Assembly: GCF_000376865.1 (NCBI RefSeq)
Contig: NZ_AQXQ01000007.1
Location: 62,001-126,000 of the forward strand
Reading direction: 5' to 3'
Origin: Thioalkalivibrio sp. ALJ7
GTDB lineage: Bacteria; Pseudomonadota; Gammaproteobacteria; Ectothiorhodospirales; Ectothiorhodospiraceae
DNA: 64,000 nt
Under the pieces are notes generated by a model, which saw nothing but the letters and a program-made list of their open reading frames with translations, did not search any database and was not told the origin of the DNA. The position numbers and the translations under genes were made by a program. Positions 1-14,223 of this stretch are shown one piece after another. The first letter of the stretch is position 1. Every line of letters starts with the position of its first letter.

Positions 1-172
1 CCAGACCATCACTGGCCTCCGCCAGGGCCTCGGCCGCCCACGTGAGGCCATGCCCGTAACCCTCGGCCTTGACCACGGACCACATCGGGACCGCTGGCGC
101 GAGGTGGCGCGCCACGGACAGGTTGTGCCGGAGGGCATCGGGATGGAGCTGGATGGTGGCCGCGCGTCTCAC
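1..172 (-). CDS. alr: Alanine racemase, N-terminal part (cut by window edge)
   Basis: Only the first 57 codons are present; the rest lies beyond position 1. The product is a PLP enzyme interconverting L- and D-alanine for peptidoglycan. The visible sequence has the family N-terminus: a basic start, DALRHNL, then VVKAEGYGHG, in which the lysine is the residue that forms the PLP Schiff base. The start chosen is GTG at 172-170, because a GAGG Shine-Dalgarno (182-179) sits six bases upstream and overlaps the dnaB stop, suggesting translational coupling. It is the last visible gene of the rpsF-rpsR-rplI-dnaB set, and dnaB-alr is a common gammaproteobacterial order. Confidence 0.9.
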   Translation of the reverse strand, partial: MRRAATIQLHPDALRHNLSVARHLAPAVPMWSVVKAEGYGHGLTWAAEALAEASDGL

Positions 173-180
173 GCCGTGCC

Positions 181-1545
181 TCAGGCCTCGTGGCCGATCT
201 CGCCGTAGACGTCGGGAGCGTAGTTCTCGAAGCGGGTGAACTGCCCGCGGAACGTCAGGCGCACGGTCCCGATAGGGCCGTTACGCTGTTTGGCGATAAT
301 GATCTCGGCCGTGCCCTTATCGGGCGATTCGTCGTTGTAGACCTCGTCACGGTAGACGAAGGCGATCACATCGGCGTCTTGCTCGATGGCCCCGGACTCG
401 CGCAGGTCCGACATGACCGGACGTTTGTTGGGGCGCTGTTCCAGTGAGCGATTGAGCTGTGAAAGCGCAATCATCGGCACGCTCAACTCCTTGGCCAGGG
501 CCTTCAGCCCGCGCGAGATCTCGGAGATCTCGTGGGCACGGCTCTCGCCGCTACCGGGAAACTGCATGAGCTGCAGATAGTCGACCACGATCAGCCCCAG
601 GCCCTTGTGCTCGCGCATCAGACGGCGGGTCCGTGCCCGCAGCTCGGTTGGGCTGAGCGCCGGGCTGTCGTCGATGAACAGGGGCGCCTCGGACAGCATC
701 TGCACCGCGCTGGTCAGCCGCGGCCAATCGCCATCATCCAGACGCCCCGAACGCAGCTTCTGCTGATTGATACGCCCCATGGAGGACAGCAGACGCATCG
801 CCAGCTGTTCGCCAGGCATTTCCATGGAGAAGATCGCGACCGGGGCGGTGTTCTTCATCGCCACGTATTCGGCGATGTTCATCGCGAAACTGGTCTTGCC
901 CATGGAAGGCCGCCCGGCGACGATCACCAAGTCCCCCGGATTCAGCCCGGACGTCAGGTTGTCGAGATCCTGATACCCGGTCGCCAGACCGGTGATCGGG
1001 TTTTTGCTCTCGTAGAGGTGCTCGATCTGATCGACGGCCGCGGTGAGCAACGGCTTCATGCCACGGAAACCCTGCGCACCCCGCGCGCCCTGCTCGGCGA
1101 TGCGGAACACCTTCTGCTCCGCTACGTCCAGCAGCTCCTTGGAGTCGCGGCCTTCGGGGGTAAACGCGGAATCGGCAATCTCGGTGCCGACCGAGATCAG
1201 CGAGCGCAGGATGGAACGCTCGCGAACGATGTCGGCATAGGCCACGATATTCGCGGCACTCGGGGTCTCGGATGCAAGACGTCCGAGGTAGGCCATGCCG
1301 CCCGCGGACTCCAGCTCGTCCATGCGGTCGAGCTGTTCCGAGACGGTCACCATGTCGAACGGGGCGTTACGATCCGCCAGCGACGACACCGCCCGAAAGA
1401 TCAGGCGGTGGTCGTGGCGATAGAAGTCTTCTGCGGTGATGCGGTCGGCCACCCGATCCCAGGCACCGTTGTCCAGCATCAGCCCCCCGAGGACCGCCTG
1501 CTCGGCCTCCTCGGAATGCGGGGGTACCCGCGGATTCGGGATCAT
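181..1545 (-). CDS. dnaB: Replicative DNA helicase DnaB
   Basis: 454-residue ring helicase that unwinds DNA at the replication fork, loaded by DnaC or an equivalent and bound to primase DnaG. The N-terminal primase-interaction domain starts near residue 8 (PPHSEEAEQAVLG). The RecA-like C-terminal domain carries Walker A GRPSMGKTS at residues 211-219 and Walker B LIVVDYLQLM around 318-327, followed by the SQLNRSLEQR and DLRESGAIEQDAD motifs typical of DnaB. The length is close to that of E. coli DnaB (471), and no intein is present. It follows rplI by 79 bases and is followed directly by alr. Confidence 0.97.
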   Translation of the reverse strand: MIPNPRVPPHSEEAEQAVLGGLMLDNGAWDRVADRITAEDFYRHDHRLIFRAVSSLADRNAPFDMVTVSEQLDRMDELESAGGMAYLGRLASETPSAANIVAYADIVRERSILRSLISVGTEIADSAFTPEGRDSKELLDVAEQKVFRIAEQGARGAQGFRGMKPLLTAAVDQIEHLYESKNPITGLATGYQDLDNLTSGLNPGDLVIVAGRPSMGKTSFAMNIAEYVAMKNTAPVAIFSMEMPGEQLAMRLLSSMGRINQQKLRSGRLDDGDWPRLTSAVQMLSEAPLFIDDSPALSPTELRARTRRLMREHKGLGLIVVDYLQLMQFPGSGESRAHEISEISRGLKALAKELSVPMIALSQLNRSLEQRPNKRPVMSDLRESGAIEQDADVIAFVYRDEVYNDESPDKGTAEIIIAKQRNGPIGTVRLTFRGQFTRFENYAPDVYGEIGHEA

Positions 1546-1624
1546 GACCGGGCCGCTCCCGCGAACCCGCCCATGCGCCGGGTATCAGCGACCCGGTGGG
1601 GCCACCCTCCCGACATCCAGCCGA

Positions 1625-2074
1625 TCACTCTTCGCCGATCACGACGACGCGGATGTCGACGTCCACGTCCGAATGCAGGTGCAGAGTCAGCTCGAACTCC
1701 CCGGTCGTCCGCAGCGGGCCTTCCGGCATGCGCACCTCGCGCTTCTCGACTTCGGTGCCCTTGGCGGTCAGGGCATCGGCGATATCGGCCGGGCCGATGG
1801 AGCCGAACAGCTTGCCTTCGCCACCGGACTTCGCGGTGATCTCGAGCACCGTGCCATCCAGCTTTTCCTTGCGGGCTTCCGCCTCGGCCAGGGCTTCGGC
1901 GGCGGCCTTCTCCAGTTCGGCGCGGCGCGCTTCGAACTCGGCAATGTTCTCCGCGGTAGCGAACTTGGCCTTGCCCTGCGGCAGCAGGTAATTACGGGCA
2001 AAACCGGGGCGCACGGTGACGCGGTCACCGAGGGTGCCCAGGTTATCGATCTTTTCCAGCAGAATGACTTCCAT
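1625..2074 (-). CDS. rplI: 50S ribosomal protein L9
   Basis: 149 residues, the normal L9 length. The N-terminal rRNA-binding domain [17 protein letters not shown] and the following [18 protein letters not shown] are diagnostic. A long charged helix (about residues 40-75) links it to the C-terminal domain. L9 binds 23S rRNA at the base of the L1 stalk and limits frameshifting. It is preceded by the DUF2232 membrane protein gene and followed by dnaB. Confidence 0.97.
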
Positions 2075-2142
2075 CTTAGGTATTCCTGTAACGTTGGGTC
2101 AGCCCCCAAAAGGGCTCAGTTTACACCGGTCGCGGACCGGTC

Positions 2143-3090
2143 TCACGAATTGTTGTCACCGTCCGGTCCGTCACCCGGACCCTTGCGCCCGCCCAGCGCG
2201 CCAAGGCGCGAGCGGATGTCCGCCCAGGCATCGATCACCCCGATCGTCGCCAGCAGCAGAAACATCTGCGGCAGCGCCAGTGCCATCAGCAGATACATCC
2301 CGACCAGCCAGAAACTGCTCATTCCCTGGCGGAAGGTCAGCGCATGCATCAGCGCAACCCCCTGGAGGAAGAACAGCACCGCCAGGATGAACGCCAGCTC
2401 GGTCGCCAGCGGAACGGGTCCCAGGTGCCCGAGGCCCGCCAGCAACAAAGTGGCTGCGCTGGTCGTCCGGCCGAACTGCAACGCCCGGAATTCCTCGCCG
2501 AACGCCCCCGGGTTGTACAGCAGCGCCTGCCAATAGCGGCCTAGCAACACCGCCAGCGTCAGACTCAGCAGCACGATCCCGGCGAACAGGCCCGTCAGAT
2601 ACGGGGCCATCCGACGAAGCGCGGCCTCCAGCTCCTGGGGGCCGGTATCCGCACCCTCAACCAGCGGGCCCAGCAGGGCCATGCCTACCCGCGCCCAGGT
2701 CGCTTCCAGGTCCGGCACCAGCAGGTGCACCAGCAGCACCCCGGCCCCGGCAACCCCGGCGGCCACCTGCAGCGTCACCGGCCAAGAGACCGTGCGCCGC
2801 AAGAGCTCGGCAAGCAACGCCACCGGAGCCCACTGCACAAAGCCGGCCATCACGCCGGCGAACAATGGCGCCCCGGGCAGCAGAGCGAACATCGCCACGC
2901 CCAGCACCACAGACGACAGCGCCACCACCAGCACCGCCTGCCCGAGCCCGATACGCAGCCCGACCAGGGCTACCAATGCGCTACCCAGAATGGCGATCGG
3001 CGGCAGGAACAGCCCCACCACGCCAAAGCCGGAGACCGCGCCCACGGCGCGGCCCCGGCTCTTCATCGCAAAGTCGGCCAGTGCCCGCAT
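2143..3090 (-). CDS. DUF2232-type polytopic membrane protein
   Basis: About 315 residues, very hydrophobic, with roughly eight apparent transmembrane stretches and a charged C-terminus (GALGGRKGPGDGPDGDNNS). Proteins of this type lie between rpsR and rplI in many gammaproteobacteria and are placed in DUF2232 (YybS-like); their function is unknown. The frame stays open 25 codons further upstream but that part overlaps rpsR, so the ATG at 3090 (MRALADFAMKSRG) is preferred. An alternative ATG is at 3066. The family name comes from context and hydrophobic profile; I cannot confirm it by search. Confidence 0.75.
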   Translation of the reverse strand: MRALADFAMKSRGRAVGAVSGFGVVGLFLPPIAILGSALVALVGLRIGLGQAVLVVALSSVVLGVAMFALLPGAPLFAGVMAGFVQWAPVALLAELLRRTVSWPVTLQVAAGVAGAGVLLVHLLVPDLEATWARVGMALLGPLVEGADTGPQELEAALRRMAPYLTGLFAGIVLLSLTLAVLLGRYWQALLYNPGAFGEEFRALQFGRTTSAATLLLAGLGHLGPVPLATELAFILAVLFFLQGVALMHALTFRQGMSSFWLVGMYLLMALALPQMFLLLATIGVIDAWADIRSRLGALGGRKGPGDGPDGDNNS

Positions 3091-3121
3091 CACGACGGCC
3101 CCGGCAAAACCGGCGCGAGGT

Positions 3122-3346
3122 TTAGTGGTTGTCGCTGTACGGCAGCAGGGCGAGGAAGCGCGCACGCTTCACGGCGGTAGCCAGCTGACGCTGATACTTG
3201 GCGCTGGTGCCAGTCACACGACTGGGCACGATCTTGCCGGTCTCGGTAACAAAACCCTTGAGCAGGTTCAGATCCTTGTAATCGATGTAATCGATGCCTT
3301 CGGCGGTGAACTTGCAGTACTTACGGCGACGCGGAAAACGGGCCAT
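3122..3346 (-). CDS. rpsR: 30S ribosomal protein S18
   Basis: 74 residues. [36 protein letters not shown] and the basic [11 protein letters not shown] segment are standard S18. It binds 16S rRNA in the platform next to S6. The GGAGAT ribosome-binding site lies just before the ATG, and rpsF is immediately upstream, so both S6 and S18 are made from one message as usual. Confidence 0.97.
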
Positions 3347-3388
3347 GTCAGATCTCCTTCAACAATTCGGTCAGTGAACGGGCAGGAC

Positions 3389-3793
3389 TTACTCGGCGAC
3401 GGCCGAGTCGTCGAGAGCGGACTCGCCACCCTCGTCGTCGCGCTCGCGGCGACGGCCCTTGGCGTTCTCCTCTTCCTGGCCCTTGGCCAGCGGGGAGGTC
3501 TCGGTCACGGCCTCTTCCATGCGCATCGCCAGATGGCGCAGCACGGCATCGTTGAAACGGAATGCGCTGGCGAGCTCTTCCATCGCCTCTTCCGAGGCTT
3601 CGATGTTCATGAGCACGTAGTGCGCCTTCACCAGCTTCTGAATCGGGTAGGCCAGCTGACGGCGGCCCCAGTCTTCCAGGCGATGGATCTTGCCTTCATG
3701 GCCTTCGACCAGGCCCTTGTAGCGCTCGATCATCGCCGGGACCTGCTCGCTCTGGTCGGGGTGGACCAGGAACACAACTTCGTAATGACGCAT
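3389..3793 (-). CDS. rpsF: 30S ribosomal protein S6
   Basis: 134 residues. It begins [18 protein letters not shown] and contains [14 protein letters not shown] and [10 protein letters not shown], all typical of S6. The tail after residue ~100 is acidic and Glu-rich, as in E. coli, where RimK adds further glutamates. An AAGGAG ribosome-binding site precedes the ATG. First gene of the ribosomal operon, with a candidate promoter about 90 bases upstream. Confidence 0.97.
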
Positions 3794-3885
3794 TGGGAAC
3801 TCCTTGCGGGTATCAGCCTCCCGTCCACGCGGTGAGGCAAGGGTTCGGCCGCGCGGGGTTCGCCCGCGGGGCAGAAAGGCGCGAT

Positions 3886-3914
3886 ACGATAACCGAAGCG
3901 CAGCTCGGCAACAA
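3886..3914 (-). promoter_or_regulatory. Candidate sigma-70 promoter of the rpsF operon
   Basis: On the minus strand TTGTTG (3914-3909) and TATCGT (3891-3886) are separated by exactly 17 bases, and rpsF starts about 90 bases downstream. This is pattern matching only. The region 3794-3962 holds no gene. Confidence 0.5.
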
Positions 3915-3962
3915 GCCTGGCCCTAGCCCCACTTCCCGTGCGGGGTCAGGACTGCGATGCAA

Positions 3963-4418
3963 TCAGTCACCTCCCACGGGCCATTCGTGATCCGGGATGA
4001 TCCCGTCATCCCGCTGCTCATGACGAACCCAGGCAACGATGTCGGCCACGTCCTCGTGCTCCAGCCCAGGGATCGGCGGCATGTCACCGTACTCCCAGTG
4101 ATGCGCGACGACCCCACGCTCCACGGCGATAAAGAAGGTAATGTCGGCGTGGTGCGACGGCTCGTAGATCCGATGGACGATCGCCGGCCCCTGGTCCGTC
4201 CCGCGGGCATCCGCTCCATGACACTCCGAGCAACTCTGCTGGAAGCCCTCCTGACCCGCGCGTGGATCGCCATACAGCTCGACATTGGCAAGCCCCTGGA
4301 TCGGATAGGGCGCGCGCTCCTTCGCCGCCTCCGGGGCCTGCTCGCCACATCCGGCGAGCAGGCCGGCAAGGGCCAGCGCGACCACCAGTGCCCCGACCGA
4401 CTTAATGCGCATGCCCAT
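3963..4418 (-). CDS. c-type cytochrome lipoprotein
   Basis: 151 residues from the ATG at 4418. A signal peptide (MGMRIKSVGALVVALALAG) ends in the lipobox LLAGC, so Cys24 is the predicted lipidated residue and the protein should face the periplasm as a lipoprotein. A single haem motif CSECH lies at residues 63-67, and GDMPPI near 112-116 provides a plausible distal methionine ligand: a class I cytochrome c fold. Its start lies within the last 17 bases of the upstream His-rich cytochrome gene, so the two are probably translated together. The partner and electron route are unknown; the protein is a likely periplasmic electron carrier. Confidence 0.82.
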   Translation of the reverse strand: MGMRIKSVGALVVALALAGLLAGCGEQAPEAAKERAPYPIQGLANVELYGDPRAGQEGFQQSCSECHGADARGTDQGPAIVHRIYEPSHHADITFFIAVERGVVAHHWEYGDMPPIPGLEHEDVADIVAWVRHEQRDDGIIPDHEWPVGGD

Positions 4419-5028
4419 GATGGCCCCCGTTGTGGTGGTCGTGGTCGTCGTGCCGCTCAGGCGCGTGCTGGCCATCGTGGTCATCCGAGGGGTCGTCGCC
4501 GGCATCGGCCAGCTCGTAGCGGATGTAATTGACCACGTGCCAGATCTCGTCGTCGTCCAGCACACCGGCAAAGGCGGGCATCTCGCCCGAACCCTCGCGA
4601 ATCATCCAGTGGTATTCGCCTGCGGTGTGCCCCCCGGCGTGTTCCCGAAAATCGGCTGGACGCGACTCCAGCGCACGCGCCCGCGGGCCGTCACCGGCGC
4701 CGGCCTCCCCGTGGCAGACCAGGCACTGGGCCTTGTAGGCATCCCGGCCCATGCGAATGGATACCTCGTCCGCCGCGTGGGGGTTATCGCGCTCGGCCGC
4801 ATCGGAAGGTGCCTCCCAGCGATGTTCATGCGCGTCGTGGTCGTGCATGGGGTCATCGTGCGCGTGATGGTCATGGCCGTGGTGGTCACCCTGGCCGGAA
4901 TGGTCATGGTGATCATGGGTCGGCTCACCGTGATGGTGGTCGTGGCCCTCGCTCGCCGCGAGCGGCGTGGCCAGGGTCAGGCTCGTGGCCAGCAGGACGC
5001 TGACCGGAAAAGCGGTTGCAAAAGACAT
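4402..5028 (-). CDS. Periplasmic c-type cytochrome with histidine-rich flanks
   Basis: 208 residues from the ATG at 5028, which has a GAGGA Shine-Dalgarno. A signal peptide ends near ATPLAAS. Residues ~29-70 hold 18 histidines interspersed with Asp/Gly. The haem motif CLVCH is at 102-106 and GEMPAF (Met ~150) supplies the sixth ligand. The last ~26 residues contain ten more histidines. The core is an ordinary class I cytochrome c; the two His-rich arms look like metal-binding additions, as in metal chaperones and ZIP/CDF transporters. It overlaps the downstream lipoprotein cytochrome and follows a secreted Cys/His-rich gene. The metal role is inference. Confidence 0.82.
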   Translation of the reverse strand: MSFATAFPVSVLLATSLTLATPLAASEGHDHHHGEPTHDHHDHSGQGDHHGHDHHAHDDPMHDHDAHEHRWEAPSDAAERDNPHAADEVSIRMGRDAYKAQCLVCHGEAGAGDGPRARALESRPADFREHAGGHTAGEYHWMIREGSGEMPAFAGVLDDDEIWHVVNYIRYELADAGDDPSDDHDGQHAPERHDDHDHHNGGHHGHAH

Positions 5029-5051
5029 CTCGATTCCTCGCTGTCGCAATC

Positions 5052-5080
5052 ATCAAAACGGACGCGGCCAGGCCGCGTCC
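5052..5080 (-). terminator. Rho-independent terminator after the Cys/His-rich gene
   Basis: A perfect 10 bp inverted repeat, GGACGCGGCC with its partner (5060-5069 and 5071-5080, so the real loop is about five bases), is followed on the minus strand by GTTTTG. It lies 14 bases after the stop of the 5094-5408 gene and ahead of the His-rich cytochrome. It should end or attenuate that transcript before the cytochromes. Confidence 0.6.
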
Positions 5081-5093
5081 CGGGACAGGGGAA

Positions 5094-5408
5094 TCAGGAT
5101 CTCGGTGGAGGGCTCGGGGGCTCGACGGACAACCGGGTCGGCTGGACCAGGGGGTCGGCGAGCACCCGGGTCAGCTTCGTCGCAAGCGAGACAACAGTCG
5201 CCAGCGGGGCCATGCAACAGCCACCGTGGCTGGAACATTCATGCTCGGCGTGATGATCGCAGTGCGCGCCCTCGCAGTGCATGGAGGCCTCCATCTCCAC
5301 GGGCTCGGTGTGCATAGTCGCCATGTCGGCCGCATGCGCGGTTTGCGCCATCACCAGCAGGGGCAACAGCAGCAACAGCCAGAGGAACGGTCGAGGACGT
5401 ACGCGCAT
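5094..5408 (-). CDS. Small secreted Cys/His-rich protein
   Basis: 104 residues, not assigned to a family. An N-terminal signal peptide (WLLLLLPLLVMAQTAHA) is followed by a Met/His/Cys segment at residues ~29-66 containing MHCEGAHCDHH, HECSSHGGCC and several MxxM-like methionines, then a Pro-rich tail. The composition resembles periplasmic copper- or heavy-metal-binding peptides found near metal-resistance genes. The gene starts 27 bases after the rlmB stop, so rnr-rlmB readthrough may express it. The link to metals is inferred from residues and from the His-rich cytochrome next door. Confidence 0.7.
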   Translation of the reverse strand: MRVRPRPFLWLLLLLPLLVMAQTAHAADMATMHTEPVEMEASMHCEGAHCDHHAEHECSSHGGCCMAPLATVVSLATKLTRVLADPLVQPTRLSVEPPSPPPRS

Positions 5409-5435
5409 GTACCGAGTGTATCAGGGCCGGCGCCG

Positions 5436-6191
5436 TCAGCATTGGCGCTGGCGGCGGACCTCGAACAGCGTGATGCCCGTCGCCACCGAGACGTTCAGGC
5501 TCTCCACCGTGCCGCCCATCGGGATCCTGGCGAGATGATCGCAGGCCTCGCGGGTCAGACGGCGCAGCCCTTCGCCCTCGGCCCCCATCACGATGGCGGT
5601 GGGTACACGCAGGTCCACCTGGTAGAGGCTTTGCTCCGCCTCCCCGGCCAGCCCCACCGTCCACATCCCGGCGTCTTTCAGCCCCGACAGGGTGCGGGCA
5701 AGGTTCCCAACACTGACGACGGGAACCGTCTCGGCTGCACCGGAGGCGACCTTGATAGCCGCGGGGGTCAGAGCCGCACTGTGATGGCGCGGCATCACCA
5801 CCGCACCGGCGCCGGCAGCATCCGCAGTGCGCAGGCAAGCCCCAAGGTTATGCGGGTCGGTCACGCCATCCAGCACCAGAATCAGATCAAGCCCGTCGCG
5901 GACGCGCTCCACCAGGGTCCGCTCGTCCACGACCGGCCGCGGTTTGCAATGCGCAATTACACCCTGGTTCTGAAACCCGGGATGGTGCTGATCCAGGCGC
6001 TCGCGGCCGACGCGCTCGACCGATATCCCGCTCGATTCGGCCAGCCGAAGCAGCCGCTCCAGCGCGGGCTCGATCGGGTCGGTCGCCAGCTGCAGGCTTT
6101 TGACGCGCTCGGGCGCCTGCTGCAACACAGCCGCCACCGCATGGATACCGCCAAACGTCTCGGCCCGGCTACCCTTGCCACCCTTGCTCAT
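5436..6191 (-). CDS. rlmB: 23S rRNA (guanosine-2'-O-)-methyltransferase RlmB
   Basis: 251 residues. SpoU/TrmH-family knotted methyltransferase that methylates G2251 of 23S rRNA in E. coli. The N-terminal substrate-binding domain (FGGIHAVAAVLQ) is followed by motif 1 DGVTDPHNLGACLRTADAAG, motif 2 IVMGAEGEGLRRL and motif 3 IPMGGTVESLNVSVATGI, all intact. It lies downstream of rnr, the usual rnr-rlmB pair. Confidence 0.95.
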   Translation of the reverse strand: MSKGGKGSRAETFGGIHAVAAVLQQAPERVKSLQLATDPIEPALERLLRLAESSGISVERVGRERLDQHHPGFQNQGVIAHCKPRPVVDERTLVERVRDGLDLILVLDGVTDPHNLGACLRTADAAGAGAVVMPRHHSAALTPAAIKVASGAAETVPVVSVGNLARTLSGLKDAGMWTVGLAGEAEQSLYQVDLRVPTAIVMGAEGEGLRRLTREACDHLARIPMGGTVESLNVSVATGITLFEVRRQRQC

Positions 6192-6270
6192 CGTGCGCTC
6201 CCGACCCGTCCAGCGGCAGTAGCGGACGCGGATCTTGCAAGATGGCTACGCGAAGTCGGCACGCGGCCCC

Positions 6271-9000
6271 TCAGGACGGGCGCCGGCGCCGTCCCCGGCG
6301 ACGCGGAGACTTGGACGCCTCGTCGGTCGGACCGGACTCGACAATCGTATTGCCATCCTTGTCGCTTTCTGGCTTCGGCGGGGGCACCGCCTCGTTGCCA
6401 GGCTCCGGAGCATCCGGGACGGCCTCGGCCTGGTGATCCGCATGCGTATCCGCCTGGGAATCCGGCTGTGCGTCGGACGCACCGGAATCGCCACCACCAC
6501 CGCCGCGACGGCGCCCCCCACGACGACGGCGTTTCTTCTTTGGCGCCGGCGTCTCATCGGCATCCGGTTTCCCGACAGGCGCTTTCGGTGCTGACTCGAC
6601 TGGAGCCGATTCGGCAGCAGACGCATCGGCATCCTGGCGCCGCTTGCCGCGACGGTTGCGCTTCTTCGGCGCGGGTGCCGCTTCGTGCGACGGTTTCTCG
6701 GTGGTGGCTTCCGCTGTCGCTTCGGCCGCGGCGGACTCGGCACTGGGCGCGTCGGCGTCCTTGCGGCGTTTGCTGCGGCGACTGCGCTTCTTCGGCGGCG
6801 GATCCGACGACCGGGGCTTGCCGGCCTCTTCGGCCAGGGCCAGGTCGATCTTGCGATCGTCCAGGCTGACCCGTGCCACCTGCACCTTCAGCACATCACC
6901 AATACGGAACACGCGACCACCGCGCTCGCCGGTCAGCGAATGGCGCGAGGGATCGAAGTGATAGAAGTCGTTGTCCAGGCTGGTCACATGGACCAGCCCC
7001 TCGATATAGACATCCTTGATCTCGACGAACAAACCGAATCCGGTGACGCCCGAGACCACGCCCTCGAAGGTCTCCCCGACCTTGTCCTGCATGTACTCGG
7101 CCTTGAGCCAGGCGATGGCGTCACGGGTGGCATCGTCCGCACGCCGCTCGGCCATGGAGCAGTGCTCACCCAGCTGTTCCATCTCGGTGTGCGAATACGG
7201 GAAACCCTTGCGACTGCCCTTGCGCAGGACGTGGCGGATACCGCGATGCACCAGGAGATCCGGATAGCGACGGATCGGCGAGGTGAAGTGCGCGTAGTCA
7301 TCCAGGGCCAGGCCAAAATGCCCATCGAGCTCCGGCGCATAGACCGCCTGACTCAGCGACCGCAGGAGGACGGTCTGGATCAGTTGCTGATCGGTGCGCT
7401 GGCGCGCGGCCTTCAGGACCGTCGTGTAGTCGGCCGGGGTCGGTTCGGCACCACCCCCCAGGTTCAGACCGGCACCATTCAGGAATTCTCGCAGGTCGTC
7501 GATCTTGTCCGACGGCGGCTGATCATGGATGCGGTACAAGGCCGGCACCTTGTGCTTCTTCAGGAAGCGTGCGGCGGCCACGTTCGCCATGATCATGCAT
7601 TCCTCGACCAGGCGGTGCGCGTCGGTACGCTCGGTCGGGACGATCTTCTCGATCTTGCGGTCCTCACCGAAGACGATTTTCGTCTCGGTGGTATCAAAAT
7701 CGATCGCCCCGCGCCGATTGCGCGACGCGTGCAGCGCCTTGAACACCTGCTGCAGCGTCTCCAAGTGCGGCATCACGTGCGCATTCTTCTCACGCAGCGC
7801 GGAATCGCCCTGGAGCATCTGCGCCACATCTTCATAAATCAGTCGCGCATGCGAACGAATCAGGCCCTCGTGAAAACGGAAGCCCTTCAGTGCACCGCGG
7901 GCGCCGATTTCCATCTCGCACACCATACTGAGGCGGTCGACGTTCGGGTTCAGCGAGCACAGTCCGTTGGACAGGGCCTCCGGCAGCATCGGGATCACGT
8001 TGTTCGGGAAGTACACCGAGGTGCCACGAGTCCGTCCCTCGCGGTCCAGGGCCGAATCGCGTTCGACGTAATGCGATACGTCGGCAATCGCGACCCACAA
8101 ACGCCAGCCCTTGCCTTCCGGCTCGCAGTACAGGGCGTCGTCGAAGTCGCGGGCATCGTCCCCGTCAATGGTCACGAAGGGCTTGTCGCGCAGATCCAGG
8201 CGACCCTTCTTGTCCTTCTCCGCCACCTCGGCGCCAAGGGAATCAGCTGCGGCGATCACTTCGTCCGGCCACTCGTGCGGAAGACTGTGGGCACGGATGG
8301 CAATGTCGATCTCCATACCCGGCGCCATGTGCTCGCCGAGCACCTCGACCACGTCGCCCTTTAGGCGCGCGGTACGCGAAGCGGACTCGCGAATGCGCAC
8401 GACCACGATCTGGTCGTCGTCGGCCTCGCCCAGACCATCCGGCGGCACCAGGATCTCGTGGGTAATGCGCTTGTTGTCCGGGGTCAGAAGACCCACGCCG
8501 TCCTCGATCTTGAGGCGCCCGACCACTTGGGTGGTATTGCGCTCGAGCACCTCGACAATCCCGCCCTCGCGGCGACCACGACGATCCACGCCCATGACAC
8601 GAGCCAGCGCGCGGTCGCCATGAAACACGCCGCGCATCTGCTTGGGCGACAGGAACAAGTCATCGTCCTGCTCGTCCGGCACGAGGAAGCCAAAACCGTC
8701 CGGGTGACCGATCACGCGACCGCGGATCAGGTCTTCCTGGTTCACGGGCAGATAGGCACCACGCCGGTTGCAAAGGGCCTGGCCGTCTCGCTCCATCGCC
8801 TTCAGGCGGCGGCGCAGGGCCTCGAGACGATCATCGTCGTCGATCTTCAGCCGTTCCGCGATCTCGTCGTAGGACAGCGGATTGTCGGCTTCCTGCAGGA
8901 GCCCGAGAATGAACTCGCGGCTGGGGATGGGGTTGTCGTACTTCTGCGCCTCGCGCTCGAAATTCGGATCGGCGGGGGTCTTGCGACGTTGTCTTGGCAT
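6271..9000 (-). CDS. rnr: Ribonuclease R with long basic repeat tail
   Basis: 909 residues against 813 in E. coli. 3'-to-5' exoribonuclease of the RNB family that degrades structured RNA and helps in rRNA quality control. Order: N-terminal winged helix (~25-90), two cold-shock domains, the RNB catalytic domain (DDARDFDDALYCE near 280, with the metal-binding aspartates), an S1 domain ending near residue 725, then a ~180-residue low-complexity tail. The tail repeats Pro-Ala-Pro-Lys-Lys-Arg blocks three times (PPPKKRSRRSKRRKDAD, PAPKKRNRRGKRRQDAD, PAPKKKRRRRGGRRRGG) and ends PRRRGRRRRPS. E. coli RNase R also has a Lys-rich tail that aids duplex unwinding; here it is longer. Confidence 0.95.
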   Translation of the reverse strand: MPRQRRKTPADPNFEREAQKYDNPIPSREFILGLLQEADNPLSYDEIAERLKIDDDDRLEALRRRLKAMERDGQALCNRRGAYLPVNQEDLIRGRVIGHPDGFGFLVPDEQDDDLFLSPKQMRGVFHGDRALARVMGVDRRGRREGGIVEVLERNTTQVVGRLKIEDGVGLLTPDNKRITHEILVPPDGLGEADDDQIVVVRIRESASRTARLKGDVVEVLGEHMAPGMEIDIAIRAHSLPHEWPDEVIAAADSLGAEVAEKDKKGRLDLRDKPFVTIDGDDARDFDDALYCEPEGKGWRLWVAIADVSHYVERDSALDREGRTRGTSVYFPNNVIPMLPEALSNGLCSLNPNVDRLSMVCEMEIGARGALKGFRFHEGLIRSHARLIYEDVAQMLQGDSALREKNAHVMPHLETLQQVFKALHASRNRRGAIDFDTTETKIVFGEDRKIEKIVPTERTDAHRLVEECMIMANVAAARFLKKHKVPALYRIHDQPPSDKIDDLREFLNGAGLNLGGGAEPTPADYTTVLKAARQRTDQQLIQTVLLRSLSQAVYAPELDGHFGLALDDYAHFTSPIRRYPDLLVHRGIRHVLRKGSRKGFPYSHTEMEQLGEHCSMAERRADDATRDAIAWLKAEYMQDKVGETFEGVVSGVTGFGLFVEIKDVYIEGLVHVTSLDNDFYHFDPSRHSLTGERGGRVFRIGDVLKVQVARVSLDDRKIDLALAEEAGKPRSSDPPPKKRSRRSKRRKDADAPSAESAAAEATAEATTEKPSHEAAPAPKKRNRRGKRRQDADASAAESAPVESAPKAPVGKPDADETPAPKKKRRRRGGRRRGGGGGDSGASDAQPDSQADTHADHQAEAVPDAPEPGNEAVPPPKPESDKDGNTIVESGPTDEASKSPRRRGRRRRPS

Positions 9001-9165
9001 TCAGTGAACTCTGTGGATGTTGCAATGGGCAGCCCCTTGCCGGGAATCCGGCCGGGCGCGCAAGTAAACGCCCATTATGAGGCATGCGGAATTTTGTTGC
9101 GCAGAACGGCATTTGCAGGGCGTCGACCGCCTACCCCGGGCGCGCAGATTTAAGGCCGCGGGGCG

Positions 9166-9194
9166 TTGACAGCCTCTCGGCCGCACACTATATT
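9166..9194 (+). promoter_or_regulatory. Strong sigma-70 promoter of tRNA-Leu
   Basis: Consensus TTGACA (9166-9171), exactly 17 bases of spacer, then TATATT (9189-9194). The expected start point is near 9201, about 36 bases ahead of the mature tRNA. It is the best -35/-10 match that I noticed. Confidence 0.85.
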
Positions 9195-9236
9195 GCGCGC
9201 TCCTGAAGCGCAGGACCCCTCAAGGTCCAACCTCGT

Positions 9237-9323
9237 GCCGAGGTGGCGGAATTGGTAGACGCGCTAGCTTCAGGTGCTAGTGAGCGAAAGCTCGTGGAGG
9301 TTCAAGTCCTCTCCTCGGCACCA
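9237..9323 (+). tRNA. tRNA-Leu (anticodon CAG)
   Basis: 87 bases including an encoded CCA. The acceptor stem GCCGAGG pairs with the 3' CCTCGGC. The anticodon stem CTAGC/GCTAG encloses loop TTCAGGT, giving CAG, which reads the CTG codon dominant in these genes. A long variable arm (GTGAGCGAAAGCTCGT) marks a class II tRNA, and GGTTCAAGTCC forms the T arm. A TTTTT run follows directly (9324-9328) and may help termination. Confidence 0.97.
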
Positions 9324-9484
9324 TTTTTCAGCTTCACCAAAACCCTTCTGCTGATCTGACTCGCGCGACATCCGAACGGATGACGTCGATTTTCGCGTGT
9401 GCAATCCCGATTGAATCGCACATGGGACCCGCGAGGGTAGCCCCGGGCCGGAGGCGACACGCCCCGACCTCGCGACCCCAAGAA

Positions 9485-11973
<2,489 letters not shown>

Positions 11974-12020
11974 CTCGTCCCTGTTCGTGTCCTGTGGTGC
12001 ATCACGCGCGGGCGCCCGGC

Positions 12021-12050
12021 AAAAGACGGGCCCGGAATGTTCCGGGCCCG
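12021..12050 (-). terminator. Rho-independent terminator downstream of hflC
   Basis: An 11 bp perfect inverted repeat, CGGGCCCGGAA (12027-12037) with its complement at 12040-12050, is followed on the minus strand by TCTTTT. It sits 54 bases after the hflC stop and before hisZ, so it should separate hflKC from hisZ-purA transcription. Confidence 0.75.
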
Positions 12051-12103
12051 ATGCGAACGGCCTGCCTCAATGCGGCCGCTGCCGCTTGCCCTCGGAGGCC
12101 GAG

Positions 12104-12988
12104 CTAGCGAGCCGGCAACGGGGCCGGACGTTCACCGCCGGGCGCGTTGAAGAACTGGAAGAACTCTGAGTTCGGTTCCAGGATAAAGGTGCTGTTCTCG
12201 CCGCTCATGCTGTTGCGATAGGCAATCAGGCTGCGGTAGAAGCGGAAGAACTCTTCGTCCTCGCCGAACGACTGCCCGAGCGTTTCGGTGGCGCGGGCGT
12301 CACCCGCACCCCGGATCTCCTCGGAATCGCGATAGGCATTCGCCAGGATCACGGTGCGGTCGCGGTCAGCACGCGAGCGAATGCGCTCGGCCTCTTCCTG
12401 CCCTCGGGCGCGGAAGTCCTGCGCCACACGCTGACGCTCGGCCCGCATACGCTCGTACACCGACTCGGAGACCTCCTCCGGCAGGTCCATCCGGCGGATA
12501 CGCACATCGACCAGATCGATCCCCAGCTCTTGCGCAGTCTCCAGCGCTGTCTGACGCACTGCACCCATGATGGTCAGGCGTTCGCCCGCCACCACATCCT
12601 GGAGCTCGAAACGGGCAAACTCGTTTCGCATCCCGTCGCGCAGGATCTGCGCCAAACGCTCCTCGGCCAGGCGCTCGTCGCCGCGGGTTGCGCGGTAGAA
12701 CTGGCCGACATCGTCAATCCGCCACTTGGCATAGAAATCGACGATGATGTTTTTCGCCTCGGAGGTCAGGAACCGATCCGGCGGGATGTTCAGCGTCATG
12801 ATCCGGGCGTCGAATTTCTCGACGTTCTGGATCAGCGGGAACTTGAAATGCAGACCCGGGGAGGGATCCACCTCGCGGATCTCCCCCAGGGCGAACTTGA
12901 TCACGCGATCACGCTCGTCGACGGTGTAGGTCGACAACGCGACCACGATACCGAGCACGACCACGGCAATACCGGCTATGCGGAACAT
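12104..12988 (-). CDS. hflC: HflC, SPFH membrane protease modulator
   Basis: 294 residues. One N-terminal transmembrane helix (FRIAGIAVVVLGIVVALSTYTV) anchors a periplasmic SPFH/prohibitin domain, then a coiled-coil-rich region around 190-245 (EEAERIRSRADRDRTVIL). With HflK it forms the cage around FtsH that tunes its proteolysis. The stop of hflK and the start of hflC share one base (TAATG), so translation is coupled. Confidence 0.95.
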   Translation of the reverse strand: MFRIAGIAVVVLGIVVALSTYTVDERDRVIKFALGEIREVDPSPGLHFKFPLIQNVEKFDARIMTLNIPPDRFLTSEAKNIIVDFYAKWRIDDVGQFYRATRGDERLAEERLAQILRDGMRNEFARFELQDVVAGERLTIMGAVRQTALETAQELGIDLVDVRIRRMDLPEEVSESVYERMRAERQRVAQDFRARGQEEAERIRSRADRDRTVILANAYRDSEEIRGAGDARATETLGQSFGEDEEFFRFYRSLIAYRNSMSGENSTFILEPNSEFFQFFNAPGGERPAPLPAR

Positions 12989-14223
12989 TAGCGCACCTCC
13001 CGCGAACGCTGGGTGGCCGGGTTGCGATCACCCAGACGGCCCGTGCTCGTGCCACTGTTGGTAAAACTACCGCGACTGGTGTCCAGCGGCTGCGGCGTCG
13101 GGCCATCACTCGAACGGTTGCCGGTACGCCCGCCCTGGAACAACTGATCCAGCGGGAGCATCATCAGGTTGTTGCTGCTCCCGACATCCAGCATCAGCTT
13201 GCGCGAATCCTCAAGTACAGCCTCGACCGCTTCCAGGTAGAGACGATCCCGGGTCACTTCCGGGTACTGCTGGTATTCGACCAGCAGCTGGTCGAAGCGG
13301 GATGCATCACCCTCGGCACGGGCAATGACCTGGTCCCGATAGCCCTCGGCCTCTTCGATGATGCGCGCCGCCTGACCGCGAGCCCGCGGGATCACGCCGT
13401 TGGCGTAGGCCTCGGCCTCGTTACGGAAACGAACCTCGTCCTCACGCGCGCGGATGGCGTCGGCGAAGGACTCCTGCACCGGTTCCGGCGGCTGCGCCTG
13501 CTGCATGGACACGGCGGTCACCACGATCCCGGCGCCATAGGCATCCAGGTTCTCCTGCATCACCGTCCGCGCCGTCGAGGCGATCTCGCCACGCCCCTCG
13601 CCGAGGATGAAATCGAGGTTCGACCGGCCCACTCGCTCACGAATCGCCGACTCCATCACCTGGTTCACGGTGGAGTCGGGGTTACGCACGTTGAACAGGA
13701 AGTCGACCAGATCAAGGATGCGGTACTGCACCGCGATATCCACATCAATGATGTTCTCGTCACGAGTCAGCATCAGCGCGCGGTGCTCCAACGTACGCAC
13801 GTTGTCGACGTTCTCGATCTCGATGCGCTCGATGGGATAGGGCAGGTGCCAGCCCGGCCCCGGATTCTTCACTTGCTGGAATTCACCGAACCGGAGCACG
13901 ACGCCGCGCTCGCCTTCCGAGATGATATGAAAACCGGAGGCCAGCCAGACGACCAGGGCGATGATCAAACCAAGGCTGACCAGCGCCTGGGTACCACGCC
14001 CCATGCCACCGGAACTGGAACCGTCGGAACCGCCACTGCCGCCCCCGCCAAAGATCCCGTTCAGCTGACGCGACAGCTTGCGCATCATCTCTTCGAGATC
14101 GGGGGGCTGGTTGCCCCCACCACCGCCACCGCTACCGCGCTGGCCGCCACCACCTCCACTCCAGGGGTCGCGGTTGTTGTTTCCCGGTTCATTCCAGGGC
14201 ATGGACTGGACTCCGTCACTCAC
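12988..14223 (-). CDS. hflK: HflK, SPFH membrane protease modulator
   Basis: 411 residues. The N-terminus is very Gly-rich (SGGGGGQRGSGGGGGGNQPPDLEEMMRKLS, about residues 17-50), as in other HflK proteins, followed by one transmembrane helix (~79-97) and the SPFH domain (SEGERGVVLRFGEFQQVKNPGPGWHLPYPIE). A coiled coil and a disordered tail follow. It partners HflC around FtsH. First gene of the pair; the 14224-14355 gap upstream contains no gene and probably its promoter. Confidence 0.95.
   Translation of the reverse strand: MSDGVQSMPWNEPGNNNRDPWSGGGGGQRGSGGGGGGNQPPDLEEMMRKLSRQLNGIFGGGGSGGSDGSSSGGMGRGTQALVSLGLIIALVVWLASGFHIISEGERGVVLRFGEFQQVKNPGPGWHLPYPIERIEIENVDNVRTLEHRALMLTRDENIIDVDIAVQYRILDLVDFLFNVRNPDSTVNQVMESAIRERVGRSNLDFILGEGRGEIASTARTVMQENLDAYGAGIVVTAVSMQQAQPPEPVQESFADAIRAREDEVRFRNEAEAYANGVIPRARGQAARIIEEAEGYRDQVIARAEGDASRFDQLLVEYQQYPEVTRDRLYLEAVEAVLEDSRKLMLDVGSSNNLMMLPLDQLFQGGRTGNRSSDGPTPQPLDTSRGSFTNSGTSTGRLGDRNPATQRSREVR

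Follow-up and report, generated by a model that had tools for sequence, protein, structure and literature searches.

A CutF-like leader peptide ahead of two cytochromes c in Thioalkalivibrio sp. ALJ7: a candidate copper-responsive electron relay

Bacteria have been described in which a small exported peptide senses copper on its way out of the cell. In CutF, copper is reported to be bound during export, the resulting delay acting through the proline-rich end of the peptide to open a hairpin that hides the cutO Shine-Dalgarno sequence (PMC9973294); the wider set of CutF-like proteins includes Cys variants of the CXXXC motif (PMC8456105). A second described system, from the genus considered here, is CytC552, the acceptor of a copper-containing thiocyanate dehydrogenase. 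Its disordered His-rich ends have a role that its authors call unclear, and the same account treats such His-armed cytochromes as unlike all other cytochromes c (PMC9456337). As reported for the genus, copCD adjoin thiocyanate dehydrogenase (PMC5328954). Here we describe a locus in which a peptide resembling the first system precedes a cytochrome resembling the second, and consider what the pair, with a second cytochrome behind it, may do.

The locus and its two cytochromes

The window is the whole stretch of DNA analysed, 64,000 nucleotides of contig NZ_AQXQ01000007.1, from what is presumably a sulfur oxidiser of soda lakes. Positions 3963-5408 of its minus strand hold a peptide gene, then cytA, then cytB, flanked by rlmB-rnr-purA on one side and rpsF-rpsR-rplI-dnaB on the other (gene names from ORF reading). 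No copper gene was seen near the operon by ORF reading of window positions 1-14000 and of the 16 kb before the window. When 30 same-genus genomes, the window's own included, were searched for cytB, seven carried it in this rlmB...rpsF slot, and all seven have there a peptide of the same plan (signal peptide, Cys/His segment, proline-rich end). Peptide, cytA and cytB stand together in four of the seven (the window's own genome, G000, with G001, G023 and G025), at 71-94% identity by tblastn in the three further genomes; peptide and cytB occur without cytA in G005, G021 and G029. Since the same slot holds all three genes in three further genomes, they are real and not a chance arrangement. A conserved linkage of the trio, a point raised by an earlier sequence-only reading of this DNA, thus holds narrowly, the exact layout having been seen in these four close relatives alone.

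The features of the two cytochrome genes, all on the minus strand, are as follows.

4402..5028, minus strand: cytA (P0001), a periplasmic monohaem cytochrome c of 208 aa with His-rich arms (Pfam, homology, His counts)
4822..4950, minus strand: N-terminal arm of cytA, 18 His (His count)
4711..4725, minus strand: haem motif CLVCH of cytA (sequence)
4405..4497, minus strand: C-terminal arm of cytA, 10 His (His count)
3963..4418 (or start 4412), minus strand: cytB (P0002), a lipoprotein cytochrome c of a copper-operon family, its start overlapping the end of cytA (Pfam, alignment)
4218..4232, minus strand: haem motif CSECH of cytB (sequence)
4080..4154, minus strand: HH (4149-4154), HHW (4095-4103) and M (4080-4082) of cytB, a candidate metal-binding face by the presumed axial Met (alignment)

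The sequence-only reading had counted 18 histidines before and 10 after a normal haem domain in one cytochrome, and the counts are exact: cytA has 18 ahead of RWEAP, 6 more within the core and another 10 among its last 31 residues, with binomial probabilities for the two arms of 5e-18 and 3e-9 at an assumed His frequency of 2.5%. Pfam places the core among class I haem domains (Cytochrome_CBB3 1.6e-14, Cytochrom_C 3.2e-8), and among solved structures its nearest relative is CytC552 from Thioalkalivibrio paradoxus (E 7e-20, residues 56-204). At E 1e-15, a cytA profile found matches in 38 of the 369 genomes searched in the class, many of these matches being other subfamilies, and more relatives with His-rich ends lie in loci L211, L216, L218, L229 and L234. 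A tree built from 18 selected cores brings together in one part (support 83/87) the three-gene group, the CytC552 group and the G038, G128 and G199 copper copies, without settling the order in which they branch. Two relatives are unusual in build: that of G038 (L056:8703-9797) has an N-terminal part, rich in His, that runs to over 200 residues, and shares its cluster with cytB and a multicopper oxidase, and in G074 (L242:7377-9485) a cytA-like domain is found inside a multihaem protein of ~700 aa near RND efflux genes.

The second cytochrome gene was claimed to overlap the first and to encode a lipoprotein, and so it does: its start lies within the end of cytA, its product carries a lipobox-like LLAGC (judged by eye) and it matches Pfam Cytochrom_C at 4.1e-9. 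Its HH, HHW and M are invariant in 27/27 and 26/26 aligned rows, and the order CXXCH...HH...HHW...M recurs in 30/30 BLAST-found loci and in 80/80 profile-found loci (the best 80 of 513), of which only the BLAST-found loci are free of prior choice, since HHWx[FY]G[DN]M was among the two patterns with which the profile scan searched. We take the two His pairs to lie near the haem Met. The family is large. BLAST-type searching at E 0.001 hit 42 of 144 genomes, a figure that includes the own genome and weak matches. A profile scan that took one genome from each species confirmed at least 513 relatives; the best 80 of these were analysed and, going by record titles, come from Proteobacteria, Chloroflexi, Gemmatimonadetes, Nitrospirae and other groups. 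No NCBIfam model for the family scored above cut-off. That cytB might be a subunit of a known oxidase was considered and rejected, its best PDB matches being generic class I domains such as that of CcoP (profile E 1.5e-16). A structure model of cytB has a mean pLDDT of 78, and a fold search gave no match at E 0.001 or better.

These patterns of conservation bear on the simplest account of the arms, in which they sequester Cu(II) for storage or buffering and the haem domain is incidental. Such an account finds some encouragement in the CopI His-rich peptide, which prefers Cu(II) over Zn(II) (PMC13308877), and in the variation of arm length among cytA relatives with the core kept, but it leaves aside that CXXCH and a later Met are retained in 8/8 aligned cytA rows and that cytB, which has no His arms, is nonetheless conserved with its haem motif. 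We consider storage as the sole function improbable.

The leader peptide and its spacer

Upstream of cytA, the following features can be read from the sequence and from predicted RNA folds.

5094..5408, minus strand: secreted CutF-like peptide P0003, 104 aa, with a signal peptide, the Cys/His/Met segment HCEGAHCDHHAEHECSSHGGCC and the C-terminal EPPSPPPRS (sequence reading, residue counts, 7/7 slot genomes)
5084..5095, minus strand: GATTCCCCTGTC, overlapping the P0003 stop codon, predicted to pair with the cytA Shine-Dalgarno region (RNA fold)
5060..5080, minus strand: GC-rich hairpin GGACGCGGCCTGGCCGCGTCC followed by GTTTTGATGA, a terminator-like pattern (fold, pattern scan)
5032..5045, minus strand: GACAGCGAGGAATC, which includes the cytA Shine-Dalgarno sequence GAGGA, predicted to be sequestered (RNA fold, opening cost)

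A secreted peptide rich in Cys, Met and His had been proposed here, and P0003 has 5 Cys (positions 45, 50, 58, 64 and 65), 5 Met and 7 His among the 78 residues after position 26, behind a hydrophobic N-terminus judged by eye to be a signal peptide. In profile searches, Pfam gave a single match below cut-off (E 0.13), NCBIfam gave none at E up to 1, and neither did PF11162 (CruR / DUF2946) at E up to 1; the exact forms of the CXXXC motif of CutF and the CXXC motif of CruR are absent from P0003. The filters applied to CutF-like proteins in PMC9973294 were a length below 150 aa, an N-terminal signal peptide, PP in the last 15 residues and a same-strand gene at most 1000 nt away; the corresponding values for P0003 are 104 aa, a signal peptide, EPPSPPPRS and a 65 nt spacer to cytA. 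Though divergent, the G005, G021 and G029 peptides retain the signal peptide; their Cys/His segment closes with ECLGHGCC or DCLGHGCC, and their C-terminus reads PPNPPPKT or PPSPPPKT.

Within the spacer, GATTCCCCTGTC at the peptide stop is predicted to pair with GACAGCGAGGAATC, and between them lies a strong hairpin (z -3.8 against dinucleotide shuffles); one terminator-like pattern was observed where shuffles give 0.6, which alone is no evidence. The spacer of G023 is longer and has an extra hairpin, with the outer pairing retained. The predicted cost of opening the Shine-Dalgarno sequence is 11.0 kcal/mol in G000, 9.3 in G025, 10.9 in G001 and 10.4 in G023, against shuffle means of 6.1-6.5 kcal/mol, and is equalled by 1.0%, 7.0%, 0.5% and 3.5%, respectively, of 200 shuffles each, these shuffles preserving base counts only. 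With the bases that a ribosome would cover at the stop codon kept single-stranded, the cost becomes 6.2 kcal/mol in G000, 2.3 in G025, 8.3 in G001 and 4.9 in G023, so that G001, near-identical to G000 here, shows little drop (10.9 to 8.3). In the loci without cytA (G005, G021, G029) the Shine-Dalgarno sequence is not above shuffles, at 7.5, 4.1 and 7.6 kcal/mol with 20%, 35% and 44% as high; sites were picked by script, which in G021 chose ATGAGA at -16 and not the AGAGGA closer to the start. A CutF-type hairpin shielding the downstream Shine-Dalgarno sequence is thus predicted in the four cytA-type loci, the window's included, and not in the three cytB-only loci, and the four are close relatives and therefore not independent. 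Control of translation by peptide and spacer is plausible, with the fold signal missing from three sister loci.

The sequence-only reading had made the peptide a metal-carrying partner of the cytochromes. That part of it is probably wrong, a nascent copper sensor that governs translation being the more likely role of P0003, and by analogy with CutF we lean towards translational control of cytA and cytB. On that model the peptide would be exported while still on the ribosome, and copper on its Cys/His segment would slow export; the ribosome, lingering at the proline-rich end, would cover the stop-codon bases that pair with the cytA Shine-Dalgarno sequence, and the sequence so freed would allow translation of cytA and, via the overlap, of cytB too.

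Copper genes around the relatives

Gene contexts were surveyed for both cytochromes. For cytB, neighbours within 8 kb were assigned to families of our own labelling, with profiles built from neighbour clusters, in the best 80 of 513 loci. At least one of Cu-ATPase, multicopper oxidase, cupredoxin, DUF411 and CusF was found in 42 of the 80 (a raw count, for cytB loci alone) and none within 8 kb in 38, the loci without copper genes being somewhat shorter (median 14.1 vs 16.3 kb). By family in these best 80 of 513, Cu-ATPase was found in 29 loci, multicopper oxidase in 26, cupredoxin in 14, and DUF411 and CusF in 8 each; for scale, a single full Cu-ATPase match was found in the whole 2.7 Mb of the window's own genome. 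Same-strand genes outnumber those on the strand opposite cytB for multicopper oxidase (27 vs 1), Cu-ATPase (27 vs 8) and cupredoxin (13 vs 1). A count for the neighbour profile 'cytC6' was left out because that profile also matches cytB. Plasmids provide further cases: 162 plasmid records have a cytB match, and the three regions examined, whose cytB relatives share 46-54% identity over the core, hold a multicopper oxidase, two cytochromes and a copper-binding protein (Rhizobium), a multicopper oxidase, a Cu-ATPase and CueR (Leisingera), and CopA, CopB and a cupredoxin (Thalassobaculum). No His-armed cytochrome was found among the annotated neighbours whose sequences were examined in these three clusters. 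A plasmid region picked by cytA has cation transporters, with copper chaperones further off.

CutF-like candidates picked out by set rules at the same best 80 of 513 loci number 27 on the cytB strand, 8 on the opposite strand and 7 in total in a reversed-sequence control; a sift by eye, applied to the 27 same-strand candidates and to neither of the other sets, dropped five (L104:12805, L119, L143, L147, L153) and left 22 in 19 loci. Candidates stand directly ahead of the cytB ORF, touching it or within 180 nt, in L075, L099, L113, L132, L133 and L134, and directly after it in L091, L107, L108 and L154; in the last three, a cytochrome whose CXXCH is C-terminal comes next. G034 encodes a Cys/His peptide of 115 aa that ends in RPPDIA and stops 80 nt upstream of cytB. 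Because such peptides occur near cytB in further loci, the tie reaches beyond the window's genus, though in a minority of loci. What recurs across genomes is therefore cytB with copper genes and cytB with CutF-like peptides, and not the full trio.

Other cytochromes appear in these neighbourhoods. In copper clusters (L107, L108, L154, L118, L096, L040:8721-9314, L041:8758-9351) the cytochrome with a C-terminal CXXCH comes after cytB or after a CutF-like peptide, and several copies have a Met-rich, MMGGG-like insertion that is a possible metal-binding stretch. A different family near cytB (L090:3084-3740, L130:1283-1903, L145:8418-8990) ends in a His-rich tail, which is long in L090.

For cytA, 13 loci with cytA-type genes were scanned with profiles for copper genes, and five have a multicopper oxidase or Cu-ATPase (G128, G199, G038, G060, G171). 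In G128 and G199 the cytA relative comes directly after copA-copB, in the order copA-copB-cytA (the G199 copA reads as two ORFs, and CopB was called by 32-35% identity); in G038 a multicopper oxidase is followed by one other ORF, cytA and cytB, with a Cu-ATPase further on. The profiles found no copper genes in seven of the 13 (G010, G012, G021, G107, G133, G148, G369), and G074 has RND genes only. More distant subfamilies account for the copies of G060, G133, G171, G107 and G369.

A different explanation makes cytA and cytB the electron chain of a copper enzyme encoded elsewhere, with the copper signal doing no more than match cytochrome supply to cuproenzyme activity. The cytA core is homologous to CytC552, the cytA copies of G010, G012 and G021 are of CytC552 type, and some 10 kb away from that of G012 lies a gene that, from its Tat motif and other features, we take to be thiocyanate dehydrogenase-like. 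The window's own genome, however, has no match to a thiocyanate dehydrogenase-like gene (in a search run without a positive control) and none to Cu-oxidase_3, and cytA is nearer the copper-operon copies of G038 and G128 (48-49% identity) than the CytC552 type (40-41%), although the tree leaves their branching unsettled. This explanation we consider unlikely.

His-only arms occur in nickel and zinc handling too, and the metal might accordingly be nickel, zinc or cobalt in place of copper. CutF-like proteins with a His motif only precede HupE/UreJ genes, often nickel/cobalt (PMC9973294), and recombinant CytC552 was purified on Ni-NTA (PMC9456337); yet the leader peptide keeps 5 Cys and the gene contexts of the relatives are those of copper genes, which makes another metal very improbable indeed. 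Taken from the contexts of both cytochromes' relatives, a copper linkage of the operon is likely, and we are fairly confident that the locus serves copper homeostasis. The periplasmic unit of metal binding and electron transfer proposed from the sequence, with copper as the metal, draws its support from these gene contexts; nothing was seen that speaks for haem-protein maturation, which the sequence-only reading had offered as one example of its role.

A proposed copper-responsive relay and its nearest parallels

Our preferred reading, which we think probable, is a periplasmic cytochrome relay responsive to copper, in which the pair both buffers the metal and passes on electrons, Cu(I) being one possible source. 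Soluble cytA would hold copper on its His arms, as buffer and docking device, and exchange electrons through its haem; membrane-anchored cytB would pass electrons to the respiratory chain, by way of a cbb3 oxidase. That the electrons come from Cu(I) itself is a tentative suggestion, and Cu(I) oxidation is speculative.

The copper equipment of the window's genome was examined alongside. It has no match to PF07732 (multicopper oxidase), a profile that alone can miss oxidases, and is among five without one in 36 genomes searched, 31 having a match. No HME-RND match lies above cut-off and eight lie below, and its sole full Cu-ATPase match sits in a cluster that we name ccoNOQP-G-I-S-like. A lineage-wide replacement of the multicopper oxidase by cytA and cytB was rejected, since the three-gene genomes G001, G023 and G025 have a PF07732 match. 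Separately, G001, G005 and G029 carry, ~8-13 kb from cytB, a cassette that encodes a Cys-rich leader-like peptide together with a Cu-ATPase and a multicopper oxidase. This copper cassette (L205:7587-12295, L206:6211-10977, L207:6347-11067) lies by a 490-aa cls-like gene, between a metB-like and a second conserved gene; at the same place in the window's genome (L204, 13649 to 13818) it is absent.

A bolder version of the relay, doubtful when taken whole, would be a cuprous detoxification chain that needs no multicopper oxidase and makes no direct use of O2: the His arms would capture copper, Cu(I) would be oxidised at the cytA haem edge or the HH/HHW face of cytB, the electrons would go to the cbb3 oxidase, and a nascent peptide would be the switch. 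On that version the window's genome, having no PF07732 match and its only full Cu-ATPase match in a cco-like cluster, would rely on this chain. Were the cytB family to take electrons from Cu(I), it would explain safe periplasmic Cu(I) without a multicopper oxidase or at low oxygen; the family matters in any event as a widespread one, often among copper genes, with four conserved His before the presumed haem Met.

The sequence-only reading knew no named system with this layout. The parts do have names, as CutF-like regulators and CytC552, and neither the combination nor any account of such paired cytochromes in copper operons turned up in the open literature searched (subscription papers mostly fell outside the search). 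CruR of Bordetella pertussis resembles P0003 as a copper-related upstream peptide with a proline-containing C-terminus, and differs in its CXXC, its RAPP, its long spacer and its copper-triggered Rho-dependent termination (PMC9426467). CytC552 (7o9u, 9vr0; PMC9456337) shares with cytA a homologous haem core and His-rich N- and C-terminal arms, whereas cytA has CLVCH in place of C(V/L)RCH, a longer N-terminal arm, a cytB partner and a leader peptide; CytC552 serves, and is encoded beside the operon of, a thiocyanate dehydrogenase for which cytA's genome gave no counterpart in our search. The plasmid copper clusters of Rhizobium, Leisingera and Thalassobaculum are alike in having a cytB-family cytochrome among copper genes that include a multicopper oxidase, and the His-armed cytochromes, too, have relatives in copper operons. 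Closest of all is CutF with its cutFOG operon in Rhodobacter capsulatus, likewise a small Sec-exported peptide with a Cys motif, a proline-rich end and a short spacer that folds over the next Shine-Dalgarno sequence (PMC9973294, PMC8456105). P0003, whose copper role is a candidate one, has a different Cys spacing and precedes cytochromes where CutF precedes a multicopper oxidase, and the locus would thus extend CutF-like control to cytochromes.
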